Part shown: positions 1,548 through 14,467 of the stretch, in pieces
How positions within the stretch are numbered: position 1 is the first letter of the stretch
Layout: every line of letters starts with the position of its first letter
IMG/VR virus record: IMGVR_UViG_3300037217_000069
Span: 1 to 37,158 of that record
Direction: 5' to 3' (one strand)
DNA length: 37,158 nucleotides
Source of the DNA: a virus
Position numbers and translations under genes: made by a program
Notes under the pieces: model-generated
Database searches by the model: none
Seen by the model: only the letters and a program-made list of their open reading frames with translations
Told to the model about the DNA's origin: nothing

Positions 1548-2056
1548 AGCGCGCCCCACGAGAAGAGCTTCGCGACCAGAAGCGCCAGCGCTATGATCGG
1601 CGCTGCCACAACCAGGAAGGCCAGATGACCGCGCGCACGCCGCAACGCCTGCCAAGCTTCACCTGCACGGAACCTGATTGGCGCCGGCTGCGGGCTATGC
1701 TCCAGGACAAGACGGAGTTTCTTGAGAGCTATGTCGCGACGATCGAGGCGTGGAAAGTGGGTGCCAGGCTCATCGCGCAGCAGGGCGATCTGCCGGTCGT
1801 GCTCAACCTCGACCCCTATGTGATCCGCTCGTGGTGCCGCGAGCGTGGCCTGCCGGTCGGCATTGCCAGCATCACGACCTGGGCGCACGAGAAGATCGAG
1901 TCCGGGAGCGGCGCCGGACGGGGTTGAGCGACCGCGTTCGACGTCTGCGCCGTGGCGAAACCAGCGGCGTGCTTCATCGTCGGAAGCGTAGAGATAGCCG
2001 AACCAGCGCACGAAGAAGCGCTCGCAGTCGTCAATATCGACGGTCGTGCCGGTCAT
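1544..2056 (-). CDS. Hypothetical protein with C-terminal membrane helix; frame opposes a plausible plus-strand gene
   Basis: A 170-residue frame. Residues 1-45 (acidic, FFVRWFGYLYASDDEARRW) and the C-terminal 30 residues (hydrophobic helix HLAFLVVAAPIIALALLVAK) look protein-like and have good codon use. The middle, about residues 46-140, has poor third-position bias and lies opposite the plus-strand frame 1625-1927, which has much better codon use. ATGA overlaps at both ends tie this frame into the operon. It may be one true gene, or two ancestral small genes (an N-terminal soluble one and a small membrane protein) now joined across the opposite-strand frame. Function unknown. Confidence 0.5.
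   Translation of the reverse strand: MTGTTVDIDDCERFFVRWFGYLYASDDEARRWFRHGADVERGRSTPSGAAPGLDLLVRPGRDAGNADRQATLAAPRADHIGVEVEHDRQIALLRDEPGTHFPRLDRRDIALKKLRLVLEHSPQPAPIRFRAGEAWQALRRARGHLAFLVVAAPIIALALLVAKLFSWGAL
1625..1927 (+). CDS. Hypothetical protein nested antisense in the left operon
   Basis: A 100-residue frame with strong coding character (mostly G/C third positions, normal residue mix): DWRRLRAMLQDKTEFLESYVATIEAWKV at about 19-46, then a compact predicted alpha/beta stretch ending WAHEKIESG. An AGGAAGG ribosome site (1614-1620) lies 4 nt before the ATG. It sits entirely opposite the 1544-2056 minus frame. I do not recognise a family. No promoter is evident. It is either a genuine gene inserted head-on into the operon or an unusually good antisense frame; codon statistics favour this strand for the central 270 bp. 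Confidence 0.55.
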   Translation: MTARTPQRLPSFTCTEPDWRRLRAMLQDKTEFLESYVATIEAWKVGARLIAQQGDLPVVLNLDPYVIRSWCRERGLPVGIASITTWAHEKIESGSGAGRG

Positions 2057-2295
2057 CGGGCGATCTCCGGCAAGGCTTCGCCGAAGACCGGGCGCAGGCG
2101 GCGCAGCTCGGCTTTGGCCGCTATCACGACGGATCGGCGCGTGCTGTGGCGCGCCAGCGCACCGAGGATCAGGGCCGGCGCATAAGCAGCGCGGTCGTCA
2201 CCCCGTAACCGCGCCTGCCTGGCCGCGCGAAGATTGCTCTGAAGGCTGGCGGTGATGAGGTCGCGCGGGGCGACAGCAGCGCGGGCGCGCATCAC
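2053..2295 (-). CDS. Small hypothetical left-operon protein (80 aa)
   Basis: An 80-residue Ala/Arg/Leu-rich, basic, probably all-helical protein (MMRARAAVAPRDLITASLQS at the start, LRRLRPVFGEALPEIAR at the end). No known domain is visible. Its ATG overlaps the stop of the preceding gene as ATGA, and its own stop overlaps the ATG at 2056, so it fits the coupled left operon. It might bind nucleic acid, given its charge, but nothing proves this. Confidence 0.55.
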   Translation of the reverse strand: MMRARAAVAPRDLITASLQSNLRAARQARLRGDDRAAYAPALILGALARHSTRRSVVIAAKAELRRLRPVFGEALPEIAR

Positions 2296-2510
2296 GCTTC
2301 CGCCACCACGCCATGCTCGCGCAGGGTGCGCGAGACAATTACGCGTGCTGCTTCCTCATGACGGTTGAGTTCGGCCGGCTCGAAGCCTCGATCGAGTAGA
2401 TAGGCGCGGGTCGCGGCCTCGCCTTGCATATACCGGTCGAAGATAGCGTCGGCGATCTCAGCCGGAAGGTCGCGGTCGGAGCGATTCTGCTGTTGCGTTG
2501 GTTCGGGCAC
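2292..2510 (-). CDS. First gene of the left operon, small hypothetical protein (72 aa)
   Basis: A 72-residue mixed-charge helical protein (LPAEIADAIFDRYMQGEAAT; C-terminus RTLREHGVVAEA). GTG start at 2510 with GGAG 7 nt upstream; the stop overlaps the next ATG as ATGA. It is the promoter-proximal gene behind the predicted operator-controlled promoter at 2543-2571. Its position resembles that of an early regulator or antitermination-type gene of lambda-like left operons, but I see no motif that supports a function. Confidence 0.6.
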   Translation of the reverse strand: MPEPTQQQNRSDRDLPAEIADAIFDRYMQGEAATRAYLLDRGFEPAELNRHEEAARVIVSRTLREHGVVAEA

Positions 2511-2542
2511 TGGCTCGCTCCATCCGAGGGTGGGATGTCGCG

Positions 2543-2571
2543 ATGTTGCATTTTATGCAACGTTTCGTCAA
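2543..2571 (-). promoter_or_regulatory. Left early promoter (candidate)
   Basis: On the minus strand TTGACG (2571-2566) is followed after 17 bp by CAACAT (2548-2543). The -35 matches consensus well, the -10 poorly. The operator fills the spacer, the same geometry as at 6227-6255. Transcription would start near 2536, about 25 nt before the GTG at 2510. Confidence 0.5.
2545..2561. promoter_or_regulatory. Left operator (17-bp inverted repeat)
   Basis: GTTGCATTTTATGCAAC is a near-perfect palindrome with arms GTTGCAT/ATGCAAC. It differs only in the central two bases from the site at 6238-6254 in the immunity region, so the same repressor very probably binds both. It lies 4 bp downstream of a TTGACG hexamer on the minus strand, inside the presumed promoter of the left operon. 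Confidence 0.75.
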
Positions 2572-2707
2572 CAAGAAAAACGCAACAAGCGTCAACGCCC
2601 CGCCGATGGCAACGCTAGGGAGGTTTTCGGGATTAAGCTGCGGCTCGCGCGGCGCTTGGAATCAGGCCGCCCGGAATGGACGATAGAAAGGGCAGCCCAT
2701 CCGCCGA

Positions 2708-3412
2708 TTATGATCCGTTCGCCGTGATCCGGGAATATCCGATCAAGTTGACGCGGTAGCTCGGGGCGGTCATTGCGGTCACTTCGAAGCCATCCCAATC
2801 TAGAGCCCGAGGTGCCGTGTTTAGAGCTGCGTCATGACTTAATAGCGACGCTGACACTTTAATATTATCGCCAACGTTTACGGCCGAGAAGAAATCTCCG
2901 ACAGATTGGGTTTCTTGAATTTCTGTACTAAAACTAACGTTTCTATCGCAGTATCCGTTGGCCTTGATGCTGATCCACGGACCTGTTATACCGTTAACCT
3001 CTAGTCTATTAGTAGAAATAGAAGAAATTGTGAGAGTCCATCCATTAATTGTTGCGGCGTTACGACCAAGAAGATCATAGACAGCGGTATCTCGCGCTGT
3101 GCGCAACGCGTCTAGTTGTGGAATAATCCGGTCTTTCAAAATAGGATTTGTTTCGCTTGACCATTTCTGCCGTAACGCTTCGTACGTGGCAGCGTTTTGG
3201 TCGACAATCTGGCAGAAAGTAATCTGCTTTGCCGGTAGGGTGATTTTAGATCTTTCTTCGGCTACGGTCTTGGTATTAACAATATCCGTTGGCGCAATTA
3301 ACCTATTCCACGCGAATGCCAGAATAGCGAGTAAAACTAGTGGTCCTGCTAATCTACGGAACAGCAGGAAAGCAAGAATAGCGGCGATAAATAGGAGCAG
3401 GACCAAGATCAC
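2708..3412 (-). CDS. Membrane-anchored cargo protein with extracytoplasmic domain
   Basis: A 234-residue protein with two hydrophobic N-terminal segments (residues 1-17 and about 22-40), then a polar domain of about 190 residues. Its C-terminal part is beta-rich (INGWTLTISSISTN, GDNIKVSASLL), possibly OB-fold-like, with one internal CQ and one CDR cysteine. GTG start at 3412 with GGGAG 7 nt upstream. The DNA is clearly lower in GC than its neighbours, with TTT/AAT-type codons, suggesting separate acquisition. It lies between the left promoter and the other minus-strand cargo genes. Membrane proteins here in prophages are often lysogenic-conversion or superinfection-exclusion factors; that role is inference only. 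Confidence 0.7.
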   Translation of the reverse strand: MILVLLLFIAAILAFLLFRRLAGPLVLLAILAFAWNRLIAPTDIVNTKTVAEERSKITLPAKQITFCQIVDQNAATYEALRQKWSSETNPILKDRIIPQLDALRTARDTAVYDLLGRNAATINGWTLTISSISTNRLEVNGITGPWISIKANGYCDRNVSFSTEIQETQSVGDFFSAVNVGDNIKVSASLLSHDAALNTAPRALDWDGFEVTAMTAPSYRVNLIGYSRITANGS

Positions 3413-3461
3413 TTTTATCTCCCACCCACTTCGGACATCGATTTAGCATAATGATAGAATG

Positions 3462-3487
3462 AAGGTACCTGCATCGCGCAGGTACTT
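3462..3487 (-). terminator. Hairpin between minus-strand cargo genes
   Basis: Inverted repeat GTACCTGC (3465-3472) / GCAGGTAC (3478-3485) with a 5-nt loop, extendable by a G-T and an A-T pair. It lies after the stop of 3516-3764 and before the start of 2708-3412, where a transcription terminator would be useful. There is no clear T-run on the minus strand, so it may be a weak terminator or an RNA-processing site. Confidence 0.4.
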
Positions 3488-3515
3488 CCCGCAGAACATA
3501 GTTACGGCAGAACGG

Positions 3516-3764
3516 TTATTGCGGCGGAGGTGGGGGAGGCGTAAGCGGTCCAACCAAGTCCGGGCCGGTACTGCCGGATTGCGGCTGCGGAACCGGAGCG
3601 TCTTGTGTGCCCGCTCCGCCTGGGCGACCATGCGGAGCGGGGGCCTTGCCAGAAGGTGTAACCGGCAAATGTGGGCGAGATGCGGGTAATGCTGGCGTAG
3701 CATTATGCGCAACTTGCATGATGATTGCAGGTGGTTCGATGGTGGGCGGAAAAAATACGGGCAT
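3516..3764 (-). CDS. Small proline-rich protein (82 aa)
   Basis: An 82-residue protein with about one third proline, ending in a run of six prolines and a Gln (TPPPPPPQ). It has no signal peptide and no recognised domain. A strong AGGAGGAG ribosome site lies 6 nt before the ATG at 3764. It starts 11 bp after the TPR regulator stop, so the two are probably co-transcribed. The alternative frame 3443-3712 is basic and atypical, and I reject it. Function unknown; the composition suggests a disordered linker-like peptide. Confidence 0.65.
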   Translation of the reverse strand: MPVFFPPTIEPPAIIMQVAHNATPALPASRPHLPVTPSGKAPAPHGRPGGAGTQDAPVPQPQSGSTGPDLVGPLTPPPPPPQ

Positions 3765-3775
3765 ATTCGCTCCTC

Positions 3776-5266
3776 CTAATGCAATTCATGCAACTCAGTA
3801 TGGTCGGTATGTTGCACGATTGTTTCAGCTATTTCCGTTGCCATTTGCTCCGACCACCTTGCTCCTTCTGCCTGCCATACGCTTATACTGTCAAGCCGCA
3901 GGTTATCGCCAAGCATTTTGCGCAGCTGACCGAATAGCTTGCTCTCAGCTGGTTGTCGGGCCTCGCCGCCGTGCCGGAATCCTTCATCTACAAAGCCGAG
4001 CAGCCTCGCGGCATCTGTGTATCTTCGGTCTTGGGCGGCGATGAAGGAGATACATAGCAATGCTAGACGCAGCCAATACCCGCCATCATGTGCCCCTTCG
4101 AACAGCGCCTGTCGCGCATAGGACCGCGCAGACTTAGTGTTGCCGTTCAGGCAATATAGTGTTGCAAGATTTACTAGAGGGCGTACCCGATAGAGAGGCA
4201 GTTCGGCGGATAAATAAGATATTGCATCAAACTGCCGTTGGATAGCTCGATCTATTGCGTCGTCTATGAAGTCAAATTCTCCAGTGTTCAAAGTAACAAT
4301 ACCTTGTCGTAACTTATCTGAAAGATTATATGCCAGGTCGAATGCTTTATCAAAATATTTCTTCGCATCGTCAGTTCGACGTTCGAATGTCGAAAGCAGG
4401 CCGAGACCATTGAGCACGTTCCAAATTGCTTTCTTCCGGCCACTCGTCTCAAGAAGCTTGTATGCTTCGTCGAGCGACTTCCGTGCAAGTATATGGTCGC
4501 CCAAATGTAGCTGTGTATCGCCGATAAGCCCAAGTGTTGTGCCGAGTGCGTCGTTATCGCCGCATTGGCGCCAGATTTCGGCAGCTCGCTGTAAAAGACC
4601 AAGCGAACGCTGACGGTGGGATTCGCGTGATAGCATGCCGGCCGATTGCAGTAGCAATGCTTTAGCACGCGCGCCCGTGTCGTCATGGATCAAGTCGACG
4701 GCACGGTCGAGATAATGTCGGCCCTCGGCAATACGCGAGCAACGTTCCCACAGCCGCGCCGTTGCGCCGGCGAGATCAATCGCGATATCTCGCCGTCCCG
4801 GCTCAGCCAATGCCCAATCCAGTACCTTCTGGACTTGAAGGAGATCGCCGGCATATCGATCATCCCAATCTTCGTCACGCATACTGTGCCGCTCGCGGTC
4901 CGCTCGTACGAAGCGCGTGGTGAACTCCAGGGCTTTACCCGCTTCAGCGCTATCGATCGGTTCGACGGGACAGGTTAGGCGATAGCCGAGTGTGTGATGA
5001 GTCTCGATTATCTCGGCACCGAGTTCTTTACGCAAACGACCGACGAACCGGCCGGGTGTACTCTCCTCGACTGCGCGTGACGGCCAAAGGCTAGCGAAGA
5101 ATTGATCCCTGGTCACCCGTCGACCACCCGCTTCGGCCAATATGCCGAGCACCCGGCGTTCGATCCGGTTCAAGTCGATCTCGCGTGTTGCGCACATGCA
5201 TCGATCGAGCGTGCGGTACAGCTGGTAGGGGCCGATCAACCATCCGTCGAGTTGCTGGAGAATCAT
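3776..5266 (-). CDS. Winged-helix transcriptional regulator with TPR repeats
   Basis: A 496-residue protein. Residues about 5-100 form an OmpR/PhoB-type C-terminal winged helix (IERRVLGILAEAGGRRVTRD, SLWPSRAVEE, VGRLRKELG and the wing IIETHHTLGYRLTC). From about 130 to 440 come TPR-like helical pairs (for example ALGTTLGLIGDTQLHLGDHI, NTKSARSYARQALFEGAHDG) as in SARP/CadC-style and MalT-like activators. No receiver domain or transmembrane helix is visible, so the signal is probably a small molecule or protein partner sensed by the TPR region. GC is lower than in the phage core. An inverted repeat at 5289-5305, just upstream of the ATG, may be its own operator. It is more typical of host-gene control than of phage circuits and is probably cargo. 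Confidence 0.8.
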   Translation of the reverse strand: MILQQLDGWLIGPYQLYRTLDRCMCATREIDLNRIERRVLGILAEAGGRRVTRDQFFASLWPSRAVEESTPGRFVGRLRKELGAEIIETHHTLGYRLTCPVEPIDSAEAGKALEFTTRFVRADRERHSMRDEDWDDRYAGDLLQVQKVLDWALAEPGRRDIAIDLAGATARLWERCSRIAEGRHYLDRAVDLIHDDTGARAKALLLQSAGMLSRESHRQRSLGLLQRAAEIWRQCGDNDALGTTLGLIGDTQLHLGDHILARKSLDEAYKLLETSGRKKAIWNVLNGLGLLSTFERRTDDAKKYFDKAFDLAYNLSDKLRQGIVTLNTGEFDFIDDAIDRAIQRQFDAISYLSAELPLYRVRPLVNLATLYCLNGNTKSARSYARQALFEGAHDGGYWLRLALLCISFIAAQDRRYTDAARLLGFVDEGFRHGGEARQPAESKLFGQLRKMLGDNLRLDSISVWQAEGARWSEQMATEIAETIVQHTDHTELHELH

Positions 5267-5288
5267 CTCTAAGCCGTTTCGTCAATTC

Positions 5289-5305
5289 CGGACCAGTTTG
5301 GTCCG
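5289..5305. promoter_or_regulatory. Inverted repeat upstream of the TPR regulator
   Basis: CGGACCA-GTT-TGGTCCG is a perfect 7-bp-arm palindrome 22 bp upstream of the regulator ATG at 5266. Its placement suits an autoregulatory operator. It is unrelated in sequence to the GTTGCAT-type phage operators. Confidence 0.45.
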
Positions 5306-5417
5306 ACACCGGACCTGCAATATACACGACTTCGCACCCGAGCGCACGTTATAGGATCGTTAGGCGCGAACATTGCTCGTTTGGTTAATGTTTTTTAAGT
5401 GTCTTAGGGTCTTGCCG

Positions 5418-5831
5418 ATGCAAAATGCTATGACTGAGGCTCTTGTCGCTGACGCCGTTTTCCACCTAAGGCGCGTGCGGCGAGCAGGGCAAGGGTGCGT
5501 GCCGCGGGTAATCCATGCCCTCATCGGCGACAAAACGGTACGGGCGTTGGTTTGCAGCGATATCGATGTGCCGATCATCTCGTCGCGTCATTGCCGGATA
5601 TTGGACAGTTGGTCCGTAGCGACACTTGCGGATGGCGAGACGATTGTTGAGGGGCGCGCCAAGATCTCGATCACGGGCAAGCCGACGCAATTCACTATGA
5701 CTGTCAGGCTCGCGCCAATTCAGCGCTTCGACGTCTTATTGCCGTCCGCGTTGGTCGTTGGTGGCAGTGCGTGTATAGCAGTATCGACACGCGAAGCGGA
5801 TCTCCTTAGCAGTTCCAGGGCCACTGGGTAG
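5418..5831 (+). CDS. Hypothetical protein convergent with the repressor (137 aa)
   Basis: A 137-residue protein, mostly beta-like in its second half (ILDSWSVATLADGETIVEG, KISITGKPTQFTMTVRLAP, FDVLLPSALVVGG). I do not recognise a family; a small beta-barrel is plausible. ATG at 5418 with AGGG 8 nt upstream; an upstream in-frame ATG at 5373 lacks a ribosome site. Its last 112 bp overlap the 3' end of the repressor gene on the opposite strand, so transcription of the two would collide. Codon use supports coding over most of its length. Confidence 0.6.
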   Translation: MQNAMTEALVADAVFHLRRVRRAGQGCVPRVIHALIGDKTVRALVCSDIDVPIISSRHCRILDSWSVATLADGETIVEGRAKISITGKPTQFTMTVRLAPIQRFDVLLPSALVVGGSACIAVSTREADLLSSSRATG

Positions 5832-6169
5832 CTATCTTGACCTTCGCGCAGGTAGTCGAGTGCTTGTAGGATTGGGGTTTCTATATCTCGCGGGATGGTG
5901 CCTGTCACCGGCCTACGCAACTCTGCAGCTGCCCGCCCTATCGGATTGGCACGTGCGGCTGATGCCCTAACCGGGGCGAGCCGGGCAATTACCGTTTCTT
6001 CACTCAAACGCAGGAATTCGGCGAGGCGCGGGATTTCCGACGTCTTGATGCCGGTTTTGCCCTGGATGCGGCGATTCATCGCCCCTCGATCGATACCGAG
6101 GTGCCGCGCTAGCTCCGCCTGAGACGAACCGCGCGCGTCGAGCTCTTCGATGATCCATCTGTTATCCAT
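5720..6169 (-). CDS. HTH repressor (CI-type candidate without peptidase domain)
   Basis: A 149-residue protein with an XRE-type helix-turn-helix at residues about 14-62 (SSQAELARHLGIDRGAMNRR, then EIPRLAEFLRLSEETV). The remaining ~85 residues are helical and carry no S24/LexA-like Ser-Lys peptidase motif, so RecA-stimulated self-cleavage is not expected. It is divergent from a Cro-like gene, and 17-bp operators (6203-6219, 6238-6254) lie in between, the classical immunity layout. The start at 6169 is chosen because the longer frame to 6244 would run through the operators. It probably represses both the rightward promoter and the left operon via the site at 2545-2561. Confidence 0.78.
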   Translation of the reverse strand: MDNRWIIEELDARGSSQAELARHLGIDRGAMNRRIQGKTGIKTSEIPRLAEFLRLSEETVIARLAPVRASAARANPIGRAAAELRRPVTGTIPRDIETPILQALDYLREGQDSYPVALELLRRSASRVDTAIHALPPTTNADGNKTSKR

Positions 6170-9635: not shown

Positions 9636-10294
9636 GCCGGGCGGGTGCGGCGGGAGTGCCGCTGAGCGAATACGATCCGGATGAGGCGCTGCGCCGCCTC
9701 GAGGCAGAAGTCGGCGGCGAGACGCATCGGCTGCCGTCCGGCTTCTGGACGGCCGAGCGGATCAAGGTGCTGCGCACCATGTCCATGGCCGGCGATTGCG
9801 TGGAAGACGTTGCCGCGGCATTCGGGATCACCTGGGAGCAGGTGCGCAACGCTTGCTCAGCACACAACATCCGCCGCCCATCGCGCCGGCAGCAGCGGTC
9901 GCGAGACAGCGAGGGCGAGCGGGCCGTGGCGCTGAAAGTCGTGCGGCCGGTGCCTGGGTCCTTCGCGGCGCAGGCGCTCGCCGGGCTGAGCCTCGCCGAG
10001 TCCGACAATCGGCGCCTGCTCGCCGCCCAAGCGGAACGGCAGGCGGCCAGGGTGATCAAACTCGGCGCGGTTGACGAGGGCGATGCCGACCACGGCTTGG
10101 TCGCGATCGTGGCCAAGGAAGAGCACGCGAAATCGGTCGAAGAGCGCGCCTGGGCGCAAATCCACGCCTGGCGGGACGCGGGCGTGACGCCGATCGAGGC
10201 GTGCCGGCAGCTCGACGTGCTGCATAACCGCAATTGGGACGTGGTGGCGCATCACCTGATGCAGAAGCTGCGGCGGGAGTCGAAGCCATGCTGA
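9632..10294 (+). CDS. GcrA-like helix-turn-helix protein
   Basis: A 220-residue protein. Residues about 36-84 (FWTAERIKVLRTMSMAGDCV, AAAFGITWEQVRNACSAHNI) resemble the N-terminal HTH of the alphaproteobacterial cell-cycle regulator GcrA. The second half is basic and helical, with a repeat-like WRDAGVTPIEACRQLDVLHN segment that could be a second HTH. ATG overlaps the primase stop; the stop overlaps the next start (ATGCTGA). GcrA acts with sigma70 at methylated GANTC sites, so a phage homologue next to DNA methylases is suggestive, but this is inference. Confidence 0.62.
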   Translation: MSRAGAAGVPLSEYDPDEALRRLEAEVGGETHRLPSGFWTAERIKVLRTMSMAGDCVEDVAAAFGITWEQVRNACSAHNIRRPSRRQQRSRDSEGERAVALKVVRPVPGSFAAQALAGLSLAESDNRRLLAAQAERQAARVIKLGAVDEGDADHGLVAIVAKEEHAKSVEERAWAQIHAWRDAGVTPIEACRQLDVLHNRNWDVVAHHLMQKLRRESKPC

Positions 10295-10800
10295 TCGAAT
10301 TCCTGCGCCGGCGGGCCGTTGCGGTCATGACTTCGCGCGAGCCCGACTTCGTGATCGGTTCCGCGGCCGATCCCTATCTGCTGCGCTGGTGGGTGATTCC
10401 GCGCAACCCGTTGTTCAACGTGTATCTGCACGAGTTCCGGCGCGACGACGACGATCGCGCGCTGCACGATCATCCCTGGGCCAGCTGCTCGATCCTGCTT
10501 GACGGCGGATATTTCGAGGAGGTCCCCGCCGAGAAGCGTCATGGGATCGCCGGCCGGCGGAGGATCTGGCGTGCGCCGGGCTCCGTGGTGTTACGCCGTG
10601 CCGGCAGCGCGCATCGTGTCGAGCTTGAGCGCGATTGGCGCTTTGTCGCCGGCCCGCCCGGTCGCCGGGCATTTCCGCGCCCGGCGATCACCATCTTCCT
10701 GACAGGTCCGCGCGTGCGCGAATGGTGGTTTCATTGCCCGAAGGGCTTCGTCAAGGACGGGCACAAGGGTGAGATCGGCCGCGGCTGTGGCGAGCCCTGA
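10288..10800 (+). CDS. Cupin-like phage protein
   Basis: A 170-residue protein with a cupin-like core: the first metal motif LHDHPWASCSILLDGGYFEE (about 51-70), the strand WRAPGSVVLRRAGSAHRVEL (second motif, His near 109) and a Trp-rich end REWWFHCPKGF. Small cupin-fold proteins of this type occur in phage early regions with unknown substrate. It overlaps the preceding gene by 7 bp. Metal binding is likely from the HDH residues; the reaction is unknown. Confidence 0.65.
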   Translation: MLIEFLRRRAVAVMTSREPDFVIGSAADPYLLRWWVIPRNPLFNVYLHEFRRDDDDRALHDHPWASCSILLDGGYFEEVPAEKRHGIAGRRRIWRAPGSVVLRRAGSAHRVELERDWRFVAGPPGRRAFPRPAITIFLTGPRVREWWFHCPKGFVKDGHKGEIGRGCGEP

Positions 10801-10801
10801 C

Positions 10802-11638
10802 ATGGCCGTGCCCACGACGCATCGGCAATTCGGGTCGAAGGTCCGGGTTGCGGCCCAGCTGCTGGCGCTCGTGCCGGCGGATGTCCGCGTCTGGGTCGAA
10901 GGTTTCGCGGGCACGGCAGCCATGACGCTGGCCAAGGCGCCGCATCCCGCCGAGCACATCAACGACTTCAACCGCGATGTGGTCGGCCTCTATTCCGTGC
11001 TGCGCGACGATGCGCAGCGCGAGCGGCTGTGTCGGCTCTTGAGCCTGACACCGTATGCCGAGGCCGAATTCCGTGCCTGTCTCGAAGCGCTCTATGGCGG
11101 TGCCGCACCGGTCGACGATCCGGTCGAGCGCGCGCGGCAATGGCTTGTGTGCAGTTGGCAGGCGATCGGCGGCAAGCAGCTGCTGAAGGCATCGTGGCGC
11201 CTCGATCTCTGTCGATCCTGGCTGATTCCCGTTTGGCAATCCGTGCCGGCCCGGCTGCAGGAAGTGGCGGTGCGGCTGCGCGGCGCACATATCCACTGCA
11301 AGCACATCCTCGAGTTGGTCGACCTGTTCGCGGACAAGCCCGAAGTGCTGCTGTTCCTCGATCCGCCCTATCCGCGGCACACGCTGGCGACGCACGAGAC
11401 GCTCTACGCCGTCGATATGAGCGACGACGAGCATCGTGCGCTGGCGGAACGGCTGCGCACGGTCCGCTGCCGCGTGCTGCTGACCATGGGGCTCGACACG
11501 GTCTATCAGCGCGTGCTGGCCGATTGGCACGTGGTGCCGTTTTCCGTGCGCGGCATGCGCAATGCGGTCAAAACCGAGGCGGCGCTCCTCAACTACACGC
11601 CGCCGGCGCGCACGCTGTTCTGCGAGGCCGCGGAATGA
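10802..11638 (+). CDS. D12-class DNA adenine-N6 methyltransferase (Dam-like)
   Basis: A 278-residue protein. The N-terminal FGSKVRVAAQLL and the AdoMet motif EGFAGTAAM (33-41), then DFNRDVVGLYSVLRD (motif II region), and the catalytic DPPY at 187-190 with following PRHTLATHETLY are those of Dam/T4Dam-type enzymes. It should methylate adenine N6 in a short site; the site cannot be read from the sequence. Motif I has Ala-Gly-Thr instead of the usual F.G.G. ATG at 10802 is chosen because the FGSK core begins 9 residues later; an in-frame GTG at 10769 would overlap the cupin gene. The stop overlaps the next ATG. Confidence 0.85.
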   Translation: MAVPTTHRQFGSKVRVAAQLLALVPADVRVWVEGFAGTAAMTLAKAPHPAEHINDFNRDVVGLYSVLRDDAQRERLCRLLSLTPYAEAEFRACLEALYGGAAPVDDPVERARQWLVCSWQAIGGKQLLKASWRLDLCRSWLIPVWQSVPARLQEVAVRLRGAHIHCKHILELVDLFADKPEVLLFLDPPYPRHTLATHETLYAVDMSDDEHRALAERLRTVRCRVLLTMGLDTVYQRVLADWHVVPFSVRGMRNAVKTEAALLNYTPPARTLFCEAAE

Positions 11639-11916
11639 CGCGCCGGCGGCCGGTCGCGGTCGATCCCGGCGACGATCTCTTCCTGCCGGCGGAGAGGCCG
11701 GCCGGCCCGGCGCTCTCGTCCCAGGACGGTTTGCCGCCCGGACCATACCGTGTTTCGAAGACGCGCGACCTCGCGGCCGGCGGCTATTGCGAGCCGTTCA
11801 CCGTCGTGGCCGGGGATGGGCGCGCCGTCGCCGGGCACGTGCCCAGCATCGCGATCGCGCGGGCGATTGCCCAGGCGCTCAATGCAGCCGGCGCGGTCAG
11901 GGCGGCGGCGGAATGA
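11635..11916 (+). CDS. Small hypothetical protein between methylase and PP-loop gene (93 aa)
   Basis: A 93-residue protein: basic Pro-rich start, then GPYRVSKTRDLAAGGYCEPF and a helical Ala-rich end. It overlaps both neighbours by ATGA, so it is translated with the modification genes. No family recognised; it might be an adaptor for the neighbouring enzymes. Confidence 0.6.
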   Translation: MTRRRPVAVDPGDDLFLPAERPAGPALSSQDGLPPGPYRVSKTRDLAAGGYCEPFTVVAGDGRAVAGHVPSIAIARAIAQALNAAGAVRAAAE

Positions 11917-12866
11917 GCGCGATCGAGCGTTTGCCGATCGCGGTGGTGTCGGTTTCCGGCGGCAAGGACAGCCAGGCGACGGCGAACCTGGCGATCGAGC
12001 GCTATGGCAAAGACCGCGTCGTACTCGTGCATGCCGACACCGGCCATGAGCACGAGGCGACGGTCGAGTTCGTCCGCCACGATCTTCCTGCGATGCTCGG
12101 TCTACCCATACATATAGTGCGGGCCGATTTCAGCGCTGAGATTTCTCGCAAGCGGCTCTATGTCGAGCACGAATGGCCGAAGAAAGGCGTGACGGCCGAG
12201 ATCGTCGCGCGGGCGCTTTCGGTGCTGCACCCTACCAGCGTGCCGTTCCTCGATCTCTGCTTGTGGAAAGGCCGCTTCCCATCGCGTATGCGCCAATTCT
12301 GCACGCGCGAACTGAAGCGGCGCCCGCTCGACGCGTTAATGCTGGAATTGATGTCGTCGGGTGAGCTGGTCGAAAGTTGGCAAGGGGTACGGCGCGACGA
12401 AAGCCTCAATCGCGCTGATGTGCCGGATTGGGAGTGGGCCGCTGAAGGATGGAAGATCGTCCGGCCTATCGCCGGGTGGTCGGCGGAAGAGGTTGTCGCG
12501 TCCGTCCTGGCGCTCGGACAGCGGCTCAACCCGCTCTATTCGCAGGGATGCAGTCGTGTCGGCTGCATGCTGTGCATTAACGCCAGCAAAGATGATGTTG
12601 CCAATTGCGCGCGGCGGTTTCCGCAGCACATCGAGCGAATAAAAGAGTGGGAAAGCTTGGTTGGGCGCGCCAGTAAACGCGGTTTTTCCACCCTATTTGC
12701 CGTGAGCGGAGATCCAACGGAAAGCGACGAGGTCGTCTACGGCCGCTTCAACATAAATTCCATTGTCGAGTGGTCGATGACCTCGCGCGGCGGCAAGCAA
12801 TTCGATCTGTTTCGTGCGGTGGCGGAACCGCCGTCGTGCTCTTCGATCTATGGACTTTGCGAATGA
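11913..12866 (+). CDS. PP-loop ATPase of PAPS-reductase/DndC-like family
   Basis: A 317-residue protein. The PP-loop SGGKDS lies at about 15-20, HADTGHEHEATVEFV at about 40-54 and RQFCTRELKRRP near 128-139, the hallmarks of the PAPS reductase/ATP-sulfurylase superfamily. A Cys cluster C213-x4-C218-x2-C221 with C232 (CSRVGCMLC then NC) could hold an Fe-S cluster or zinc, as in DndC and related phage proteins. PP-loop enzymes adenylate a substrate and pass on sulfur. Lying between Dam-like and C5 methylases with 4-nt overlaps, it may serve DNA or tRNA modification rather than sulfate assimilation. There is no DndD/DndE/cysteine desulfurase partner in the window. Confidence 0.8.
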   Translation: MSAIERLPIAVVSVSGGKDSQATANLAIERYGKDRVVLVHADTGHEHEATVEFVRHDLPAMLGLPIHIVRADFSAEISRKRLYVEHEWPKKGVTAEIVARALSVLHPTSVPFLDLCLWKGRFPSRMRQFCTRELKRRPLDALMLELMSSGELVESWQGVRRDESLNRADVPDWEWAAEGWKIVRPIAGWSAEEVVASVLALGQRLNPLYSQGCSRVGCMLCINASKDDVANCARRFPQHIERIKEWESLVGRASKRGFSTLFAVSGDPTESDEVVYGRFNINSIVEWSMTSRGGKQFDLFRAVAEPPSCSSIYGLCE

Positions 12867-14467
12867 GCGCGGTTGAAGTGCTGCCGAGCATAGCCGCGCC
12901 GTCTGTGCGTCCGGCGAAGCCGAAGCTCGTCGCCGATCTCTATTGCGGCGCCGGCGGTCTGTCCGAAGGTGCGAAGCGCGCGCTCGAAGCGCTCGGGCTC
13001 AGCATGAAGATGGTGGGCGCCAATCACTGGCGTACAGCGATCGACACGCACCTGCGCAACCATCCCGACGCGATCCATTATTGCCAGGACGTGGCGACGA
13101 TCCGGCCGATCGAGGCTGTGCCGGCCGGATATCTCGACCTGCTGATGGCGGCGCCGAGCTGCACGCATCATTCTCGGGCGCGTGGCGGCAAACCCACCTC
13201 GGACCAACAGCGGACCGACCCGTGGCACATTGTGACCTGGCTGACCGAGTTGCGCGTCGCCCGGCTGCTTGTCGAGAACGTGCCGGAATTCCAGGATTGG
13301 GGACCGGTCTGCATGCGGACCGGCCGGCCGCTCAAATCACGCAAGGGCGAGTATTTCCGCGCCTGGATCGCGGCCATAAAGGGCCTGGGATTTCGGGTCG
13401 AATGGCGCGTGCTCAATTGCGCCGATCACGGCGATGCCACGACGCGCGAGCGCCTGTTCATCATGGCGCGATCGGACGGCAAGCGCCTGACCTGGCCGGA
13501 CGCTTCGCATAGCCGGGACGGAGGCTCGGACCTGTTCGGCCATGGCGCGCGGCGCTGGCGGCCGGCGCGCGAGATCATCGATTGGTCGATCCACGGGCAG
13601 TCCATATTCACGCGCAAGAAGCCGCTGGCACCGGCGACCATCCGCCGGATCTATGCCGGCATCACGCGCTTCGACTGGCCAGCACCCTATATCGTCATGC
13701 TGCGCCAGCACATGGACGCGCGCAGCATCGATCTGCCGCTACCGACGATTGCGGCGCAGGGCAATCATGTCGGCCTGGCGCAGCCGATCCTCCTCAACCG
13801 GCACGGTGACAACGGCAGCGTCCGGGCGCATGCGATCGACGATCCGATGCCGACGGCCGATTGCCGTGGCGCGGGATATCTGGTCGAGCCGTTCGTCCTG
13901 TCGCAGGCAAGCTGCGGCGCGCCGCGCGCGGTGTGCGACCCGATCCCGACGGCGACGGCCGACGGCGCCCATGCGCTCATCGCGCCGTATTACGGCAGCG
14001 GCTCGGGGCTGACCTGTGCCAGCCTCGGCGAGCCGCTGCACAGCCTCACGGCGCGGTCGCGGTTCGGCATCATCGTGCCGATCACGCATGTCGACGGGTC
14101 GAACCGGGCGCGCAGCCTCGAACAGCCGCTGCCGACATTGACCACGGCGAACCGGGGCGAGCTGGCCTTCATCGCGGCGGCGTTCGGCGAGCGCGAAGGG
14201 CAGGCGCCGCGTATCCACTCTCTCGACGGCCCGACGCCGACGATCTGCGCCCAGGGCCGTATCAACCTGGTCGAGCCCGGCCAGCACCGCTTCGACATTC
14301 TGTTTCGCATGCTCCAGCCGCACGAGCTCGCCGCAGCAATGGGCTTCATCGGGGAGGGGCGCACCTATCACTTCACGGGCAACAAGACAGAGGTCACGCG
14401 GCAGATCGGAAATGCGGTTCCCGTCAATACGGCGGCGGCGCTGGTCGGCGCATTGATGTCGGCATGA
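12863..14467 (+). CDS. DNA cytosine-C5 methyltransferase with repeated recognition region
   Basis: A 534-residue enzyme. Motif I DLYCGAGGLSEG (26-37), motif IV APSCTHHSRARGGK with catalytic Cys in a PSC variant of the usual PCQ, motif VI VENVPEF, motif VIII TTRERLFIMA and motif X RQIGNAVPVNTA near the end are all present. Between VIII and X, six units of roughly 31-40 residues repeat an L-x-x-P-x-P-T-type core (about residues 283-472), the place of the target-recognition domain. It should methylate cytosine C5; several recognition modules could give more than one target. Start overlaps the PP-loop stop (ATGA). Confidence 0.88.
   Translation: MSAVEVLPSIAAPSVRPAKPKLVADLYCGAGGLSEGAKRALEALGLSMKMVGANHWRTAIDTHLRNHPDAIHYCQDVATIRPIEAVPAGYLDLLMAAPSCTHHSRARGGKPTSDQQRTDPWHIVTWLTELRVARLLVENVPEFQDWGPVCMRTGRPLKSRKGEYFRAWIAAIKGLGFRVEWRVLNCADHGDATTRERLFIMARSDGKRLTWPDASHSRDGGSDLFGHGARRWRPAREIIDWSIHGQSIFTRKKPLAPATIRRIYAGITRFDWPAPYIVMLRQHMDARSIDLPLPTIAAQGNHVGLAQPILLNRHGDNGSVRAHAIDDPMPTADCRGAGYLVEPFVLSQASCGAPRAVCDPIPTATADGAHALIAPYYGSGSGLTCASLGEPLHSLTARSRFGIIVPITHVDGSNRARSLEQPLPTLTTANRGELAFIAAAFGEREGQAPRIHSLDGPTPTICAQGRINLVEPGQHRFDILFRMLQPHELAAAMGFIGEGRTYHFTGNKTEVTRQIGNAVPVNTAAALVGALMSA

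Follow-up and report, generated by a model that had tools for sequence, protein, structure and literature searches.

A PP-loop protein of the phage 186 Orf84 family encoded between two orphan DNA methyltransferases in a contractile-tailed phage: a candidate sulfur transferase

Whether a PP-loop ATP-pyrophosphatase encoded between two DNA methyltransferases cooperates with them, and on what substrate it may act, is the question raised by positions 10,802 to 14,467 of IMG/VR virus record IMGVR_UViG_3300037217_000069, a 37,158-base stretch of DNA hereafter referred to as the window. Because the window carries genes for a terminase, a portal protein, a tail sheath, a tape measure and baseplate proteins, it derives from a contractile-tailed phage or prophage; the phage is of the temperate type and the region of interest is an accessory stretch of its early operon. 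Four consecutive genes on the plus strand encode a D12-class N6-adenine DNA methyltransferase of 278 residues (10802..11638), a 93-residue protein of unknown function (11635..11916), a 317-residue PP-loop protein (11913..12866) and a C5-cytosine DNA methyltransferase of 534 residues (12863..14467), each overlapping the next by the four bases ATGA (at 11635, 11913 and 12863). This layout had been recognized in a preliminary description of the locus, in which, however, the PP-loop gene was given as 11635-12866, a span that covers two genes. Our analysis indicates that the two methylases are ordinary orphan enzymes and that the PP-loop protein belongs to a widespread, uncharacterised phage family. 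The explanation that we favour, tentatively and at somewhat less than an even chance, is that two anti-restriction methylases share an operon with a PP-loop enzyme that acts independently of them, probably as an ATP-activating sulfur transferase with a [4Fe-4S] cluster and a nucleic-acid or nucleotide target.

The PP-loop protein matched the PHROG family phrog_424 over its full length (residues 8-316, E 8.3e-64) and Pfam PF01507 of the phosphoadenosine phosphosulfate (PAPS) reductase superfamily (E 1.2e-20). Members of phrog_424, labelled 'phosphoadenosine phosphosulfate reductase', include Orf84 of phage 186 (44% identity to the window protein), gp30 of Stenotrophomonas phage S1 and gp60 of Agrobacterium phage Rivra, the three showing 43-50% identity over the full length; further relatives were found in Pseudomonas phage Riah, Serratia phage Parlo and Acidovorax phages, and, at a greater distance, in NinC of phage lambda. 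The window protein has in common with the members of this phrog_424/Orf84 family the PP-loop, the motifs CTxELK and RVGCxxC, and a GLCE-type C-terminal tail; in the window protein itself these take the forms SGGKDS, FCTxELK, RVGCxxC and CSSxYGLCE, the last reading CSSIYGLCE. The gene neighbours differ, in that Orf84 of phage 186 has no adjacent methylase whereas its Rivra counterpart lies next to MT-A70 and phrog_757 methylases. Across 53 diverse homologues, the residues of the SGGKDS loop (S15, G17-S20), C116, C130, C218, C221 and C316 were invariant, and C309 was nearly so. Thus, of the cysteine cluster initially proposed for this protein (C213, C218, C221 and C232), the two central residues stand out as invariant, while C213 and C232 are not conserved. 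The phage 186 record labels Orf84 as non-essential, and lambda ninC is likewise non-essential (PMC10695390), consistent with an accessory gene. A literature search retrieved no tested function for the phrog_424/Orf84 family. In Acidovorax phage Alfacinha1 (L014:3710-5086), the PP-loop protein occurs as a natural fusion with an N-terminal domain of approximately 95 residues matching phrog_625, a family of unknown function, which may hint at substrate binding.

Viral cysH genes are listed in the metagenomic literature under assimilatory sulfate reduction, although this role has not been validated (PMC12713726), and proteins of the superfamily are often so labelled in viromes, as they are in phage records bearing the name phosphoadenosine phosphosulfate reductase. 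On this basis, together with a CysH fold for which sulfonucleotide reductases are the best structural matches (see below), the window protein might be an auxiliary metabolic adenosine phosphosulfate (APS)/PAPS reductase, increasing the assimilation of sulfate by the host during infection. To place the protein, a tree was built with CysH (n = 10), CysD, DndC and SspD references taken from whole genomes; BrxP was left out since no BrxP reference was found in 150 genomes. CysH and CysD each formed one clade (support 100/96 and 100/99, respectively), the DndC sequences grouped together, and the window protein fell outside all of them, in a clade with Orf84 (99/91) located on the SspD/NinC side of the tree (96/85). 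All ten CysH references displayed degenerate loops (such as SFGxE, SGAED and SFGIQ) and an ECGLH-type end, EC(G)(L/I)H, which in APS/PAPS reductases forms the catalytic tail; the window protein, in contrast, retains an intact SGGKDS, lacks ECGLH and terminates in CSSIYGLCE. Its scores against the NCBIfam CysH/APS models were far under the cut-offs (28.8 of 165.1 bits for TIGR00434, 24.4 of 254.2 for TIGR02057 and 36.8 of 235.3 for TIGR02055), and the 10 tested genomes with a homologue also carry other PF01507 genes, mostly of the CysD or CysH type. As judged by motifs and phylogeny, the PP-loop protein is not a sulfonucleotide reductase, leaving a metabolic cysH role very improbable; the outcome named at the outset as refuting a modification enzyme, a position of the protein among sulfate-assimilation enzymes, did not materialize. 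A weak relative of the protein with a degenerate loop was found in the PDB under the name 'PptA' (21fy), which over the compared stretch is near-identical to a PAPS-reductase-like protein of Vibrio phage VH-5 (L476), itself carrying the degenerate loop SCGAPS. This structure may reveal the function of a side branch of the superfamily; our literature search found no paper explaining it.

The resemblance to DndC suggested earlier was borne out at the level of motifs, SGGKDS, CTxxLK and GCxxC being common to the window protein, DndC and SspD, even though the window protein lies outside both clades. SspD shows an intact SGGKDS, WCTRxxK, GCxFC and a Cys-rich C-terminus like that of the window protein, and was the nearest profile in a defence library (PADLOC: SspD E 1e-17, followed by BrxP 4e-14 and DndC 7e-4). 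DndC likewise carries SGGKDS, WCTxxLKIxP and GCWxC. These similarities, and the position of the protein on the SspD side of the tree, are what would be expected of a true DNA phosphorothioation enzyme, equivalent to DndC or SspD and relying on host or unknown phage partners. SspD, however, forms a clade of its own (100/99) that excludes the Orf84 family and has a different C-terminal region, while DndC differs by its separate clade and its long C-terminal extension. Moreover, and as already remarked of DndD and DndE in the preliminary description, PADLOC detected no Dnd or Ssp partner (DndD/E, SspA/B/C) among the 14 window proteins scanned, nor was any evident among the recurrent neighbours of the family. 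We thus regard phosphorothioation proper as quite unlikely.

An AlphaFold2 model of the PP-loop protein computed from 53 sequences reached a mean predicted local distance difference test score (pLDDT) of 93.4. When the model was compared with known structures using Foldseek and VIA-align, APS/PAPS reductases ranked first, with Z up to 13.9, followed by GMP synthetase, CysD, TtuA and LarE; NcsA was also matched by Foldseek, and a profile search of the PDB returned QueC and Cap9 among the matches. Since this fold is common to sulfur and non-sulfur chemistries, it does not decide between them. A non-sulfur activity, whether a base or protein is adenylated or amidated at the expense of ATP, in the manner of QueC or Cap9, or the protein serves as a regulator, would agree with the PDB profile matches and with a weak match to QueC in Pfam (PF06508, E 1.2e-4). 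A further point in its favour is a queuine tRNA-ribosyltransferase-like gene (phrog_887, possibly of the DpdA type) that comes immediately after the homologue of the PP-loop gene at four of the dereplicated loci (L108:9034-9771, L162:8969-9673, L035:7929-8753 and L030:1166-1996); this adjacency is a hint of nucleic-acid modification, but it is also seen beside the control genes described below. The strict cysteine set and the DndC/SspD-type CTxxLK and GCxxC motifs favour Fe-S or sulfur chemistry instead, and we consider a non-sulfur activity rather unlikely.

The proximity of the two methylases raises the possibility that the adenine methylase, the PP-loop enzyme and the C5 methylase form one dedicated cassette that jointly places methyl and sulfur (or other ATP-dependent) marks on phage DNA against restriction. 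The ATGA overlaps speak for this view, and the joint expression that had been read from them holds insofar as the genes do share an operon. Such overlaps are frequent across the phage, occurring at 14 of the 36 gene boundaries of the window by a rough gene list, head and tail genes included; they therefore signify no more than membership of the same operon, and cooperation of the methylases with the PP-loop enzyme is unproven. To look at the neighbourhood more broadly, relatives of the PP-loop gene were gathered from viral contigs and genomes and dereplicated to 121 loci, which were scored with methylase profiles (C5, D12, N4/N6) alongside three control anchors, NinG (n = 46), cupin (n = 70) and SSB (n = 45). 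The profiles were built from the neighbours of PP-loop genes, a bias that favours a link, and some methylases may escape them in all sets. A methylase was present within 2 kb of the PP-loop gene in 38 of 121 loci (31%), compared to 17 of 46 for NinG (37%), 18 of 70 for the cupin (26%) and 3 of 45 for SSB (7%). In support of a cassette, methylase density per side was 0.152 within 1 kb of PP-loop genes and had dropped to 0.00 at a distance of 6-8 kb, and methylases of other classes flank the PP-loop gene in phage Rivra (MT-A70, phrog_757) and in locus L118 (N4/N6, C5). Yet the seemingly strong enrichment vanished against the NinG and cupin anchors, and neighbourhood was accordingly dropped as proof of function: in the early accessory regions of phages, methylases are found next to a number of anchor genes that are unrelated. 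Methylases on both sides of the PP-loop gene were found in two loci only, the window and L118, the one-sided rate predicting about 2.6. For the closest homologues (57-62% identity; L105 and L026-L029), these profiles detected no methylase in the flanking DNA covered, and none of the 20 nearest loci reproduced the gene arrangement of the window. With no excess over NinG or the cupin in spite of a test biased towards the PP-loop set, the proposal of a single cassette is not supported and appears unlikely.

We thus return to an independent PP-loop enzyme, probably a sulfur transferase, sharing with the methylases only an operon. A [4Fe-4S] sulfur transferase is favoured because, in the alignment, the positions of C130, C218 and C221 coincide with those of the Fe-S cysteines in APS-type reductases as well as with cysteines of DndC and SspD, the matching positions being kept in the phrog_424/Orf84 family and in the SspD, NinC and DndC references. 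In the proposed mechanism, the methylases would shield phage DNA from host restriction, while the PP-loop enzyme, acting separately, would use ATP to adenylate its substrate through SGGKDS. A [4Fe-4S] cluster would be held by C130, C218 and C221, with C116 serving as the fourth ligand or the site being left open, and sulfur from a host desulfurase would be delivered to the target, possibly through the conserved C-terminal pair C309/C316. The chemistry would be in the manner of the TtuA, NcsA, DndC and SspD thiolases. The [4Fe-4S] tRNA thiolases TtuA and NcsA, whose PP-loop fold matches the window model, were taken as a mechanistic template; the likeness is at the level of the fold. Both the cluster and the nature of the substrate, like the function ascribed to the C309/C316 tail, are inferred, and the sequence does not discriminate between DNA and tRNA as the modified target.

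Several observations weigh against this explanation. None of the phrog_424/Orf84 members has a demonstrated substrate, sulfur donor or modified nucleoside; the arrangement of cysteines around the putative cluster is read from alignment and conservation; and GMP synthetase, QueC and Cap9, which perform non-sulfur chemistry, score nearly as well structurally. Furthermore, the D12 methylases and one C5 cluster, each taken singly, were slightly more frequent than expected in the vicinity of PP-loop genes (p about 0.01 and 0.04, with no correction for many tests), an excess that would be compatible with some functional link between PP-loop enzyme and methylases, bearing in mind that the models were built from these very neighbours.

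The phrog_424/Orf84 family sits in well-studied phages, from 186 to, more distantly, lambda with its NinC, and is routinely called cysH. On the strength of the motifs and of the tree, members of the Orf84 clade ought to be left out when sulfate-assimilation genes are tallied in viromes. The residues bearing on the chemistry may now be named (C116, C130, C218, C221, C309, C316 and the SGGKDS loop), and the worthwhile question becomes what a phrog_424 enzyme modifies. A broader proposal, which we find conceivable but doubtful, is that a stand-alone PP-loop enzyme found from phage 186 to the phage of the window, with NinC as a distant relative, marks phage DNA, or host or phage tRNA, with a sulfur-containing or other ATP-dependent modification with the help of a host desulfurase only, as a single-gene system often mislabelled viral cysH. 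If nucleic-acid thiolation were true, the gene would represent a one-gene counter-restriction or translation-control device.

The two methylases themselves appear intact, with their catalytic motifs kept. The adenine enzyme (10802-11638) was assigned to the D12 class by PF02086 (E 2.6e-13) and to phrog_56 (E 5e-36), and displays the FxGxG-type motif FAGTA and DPPY. The description 'Dam-like' holds at the superfamily level; the TIGR00571 dam score of 47.3 bits is well below the cut-off of 114.85, so that GATC specificity cannot be read from the sequence. The cytosine methylase call was upheld: the 12863-14467 product matched PF00145 (E 4e-24) and phrog_116 (E 1e-65), and contains CGAGG, PSCT with the catalytic cysteine, ENV, the QRR-type RxR motif RERLF, and GNAV. 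Both enzymes have the same domains as the phage orphan methyltransferases of phrog_56 and phrog_116. As for the 93-residue orphan product (11635..11916), whose gene overlaps its neighbours by ATGA at both ends, no family was found above cut-off among Pfam, PHROG, NCBIfam and PADLOC profiles, and tblastn gave zero matches in phage records at E 0.01.

Directly upstream of the adenine methylase, a plus-strand gene (10288..10800) encodes a cupin-like 'cysteine dioxygenase' of phrog_4786 (E 6e-53), considered here as a neighbour with no shown membership of the group; its homologues occur in 74 phage records, are common in mycobacteriophages and have methylases within 2 kb in 26% of 70 loci. A Mycobacterium abscessus prophage carries a pair made of a cysteine-dioxygenase-like cupin and a PP-loop protein (PMC8092301). 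The pair is present in the window and in prophiGD11-3, and both genes also occur in Labrenzia phage LagS-V1. The cupin was nevertheless dropped as a candidate partner, as only 1 of 70 cupin loci had a PP-loop gene of the family within 8 kb. An ASCH-domain protein was similarly set aside, since it recurs near PP-loop genes (L016, L022, L186 and others) but is not over-represented relative to controls (cluster 9). In one locus, the gene of a radical SAM domain protein (phrog_9298; L026:7111-7992) immediately precedes that of a close homologue of the PP-loop protein.

The window contains no tRNA genes, and no relatives of the region were found at the DNA level among phage records. Finally, the GC content of positions 2000-6000 is 0.56, compared to about 0.66, and a minus-strand gene located there (3776-5266) encodes a bacterial-type regulator with winged-helix and TPR domains; this low-GC left end is possibly a host or foreign segment.

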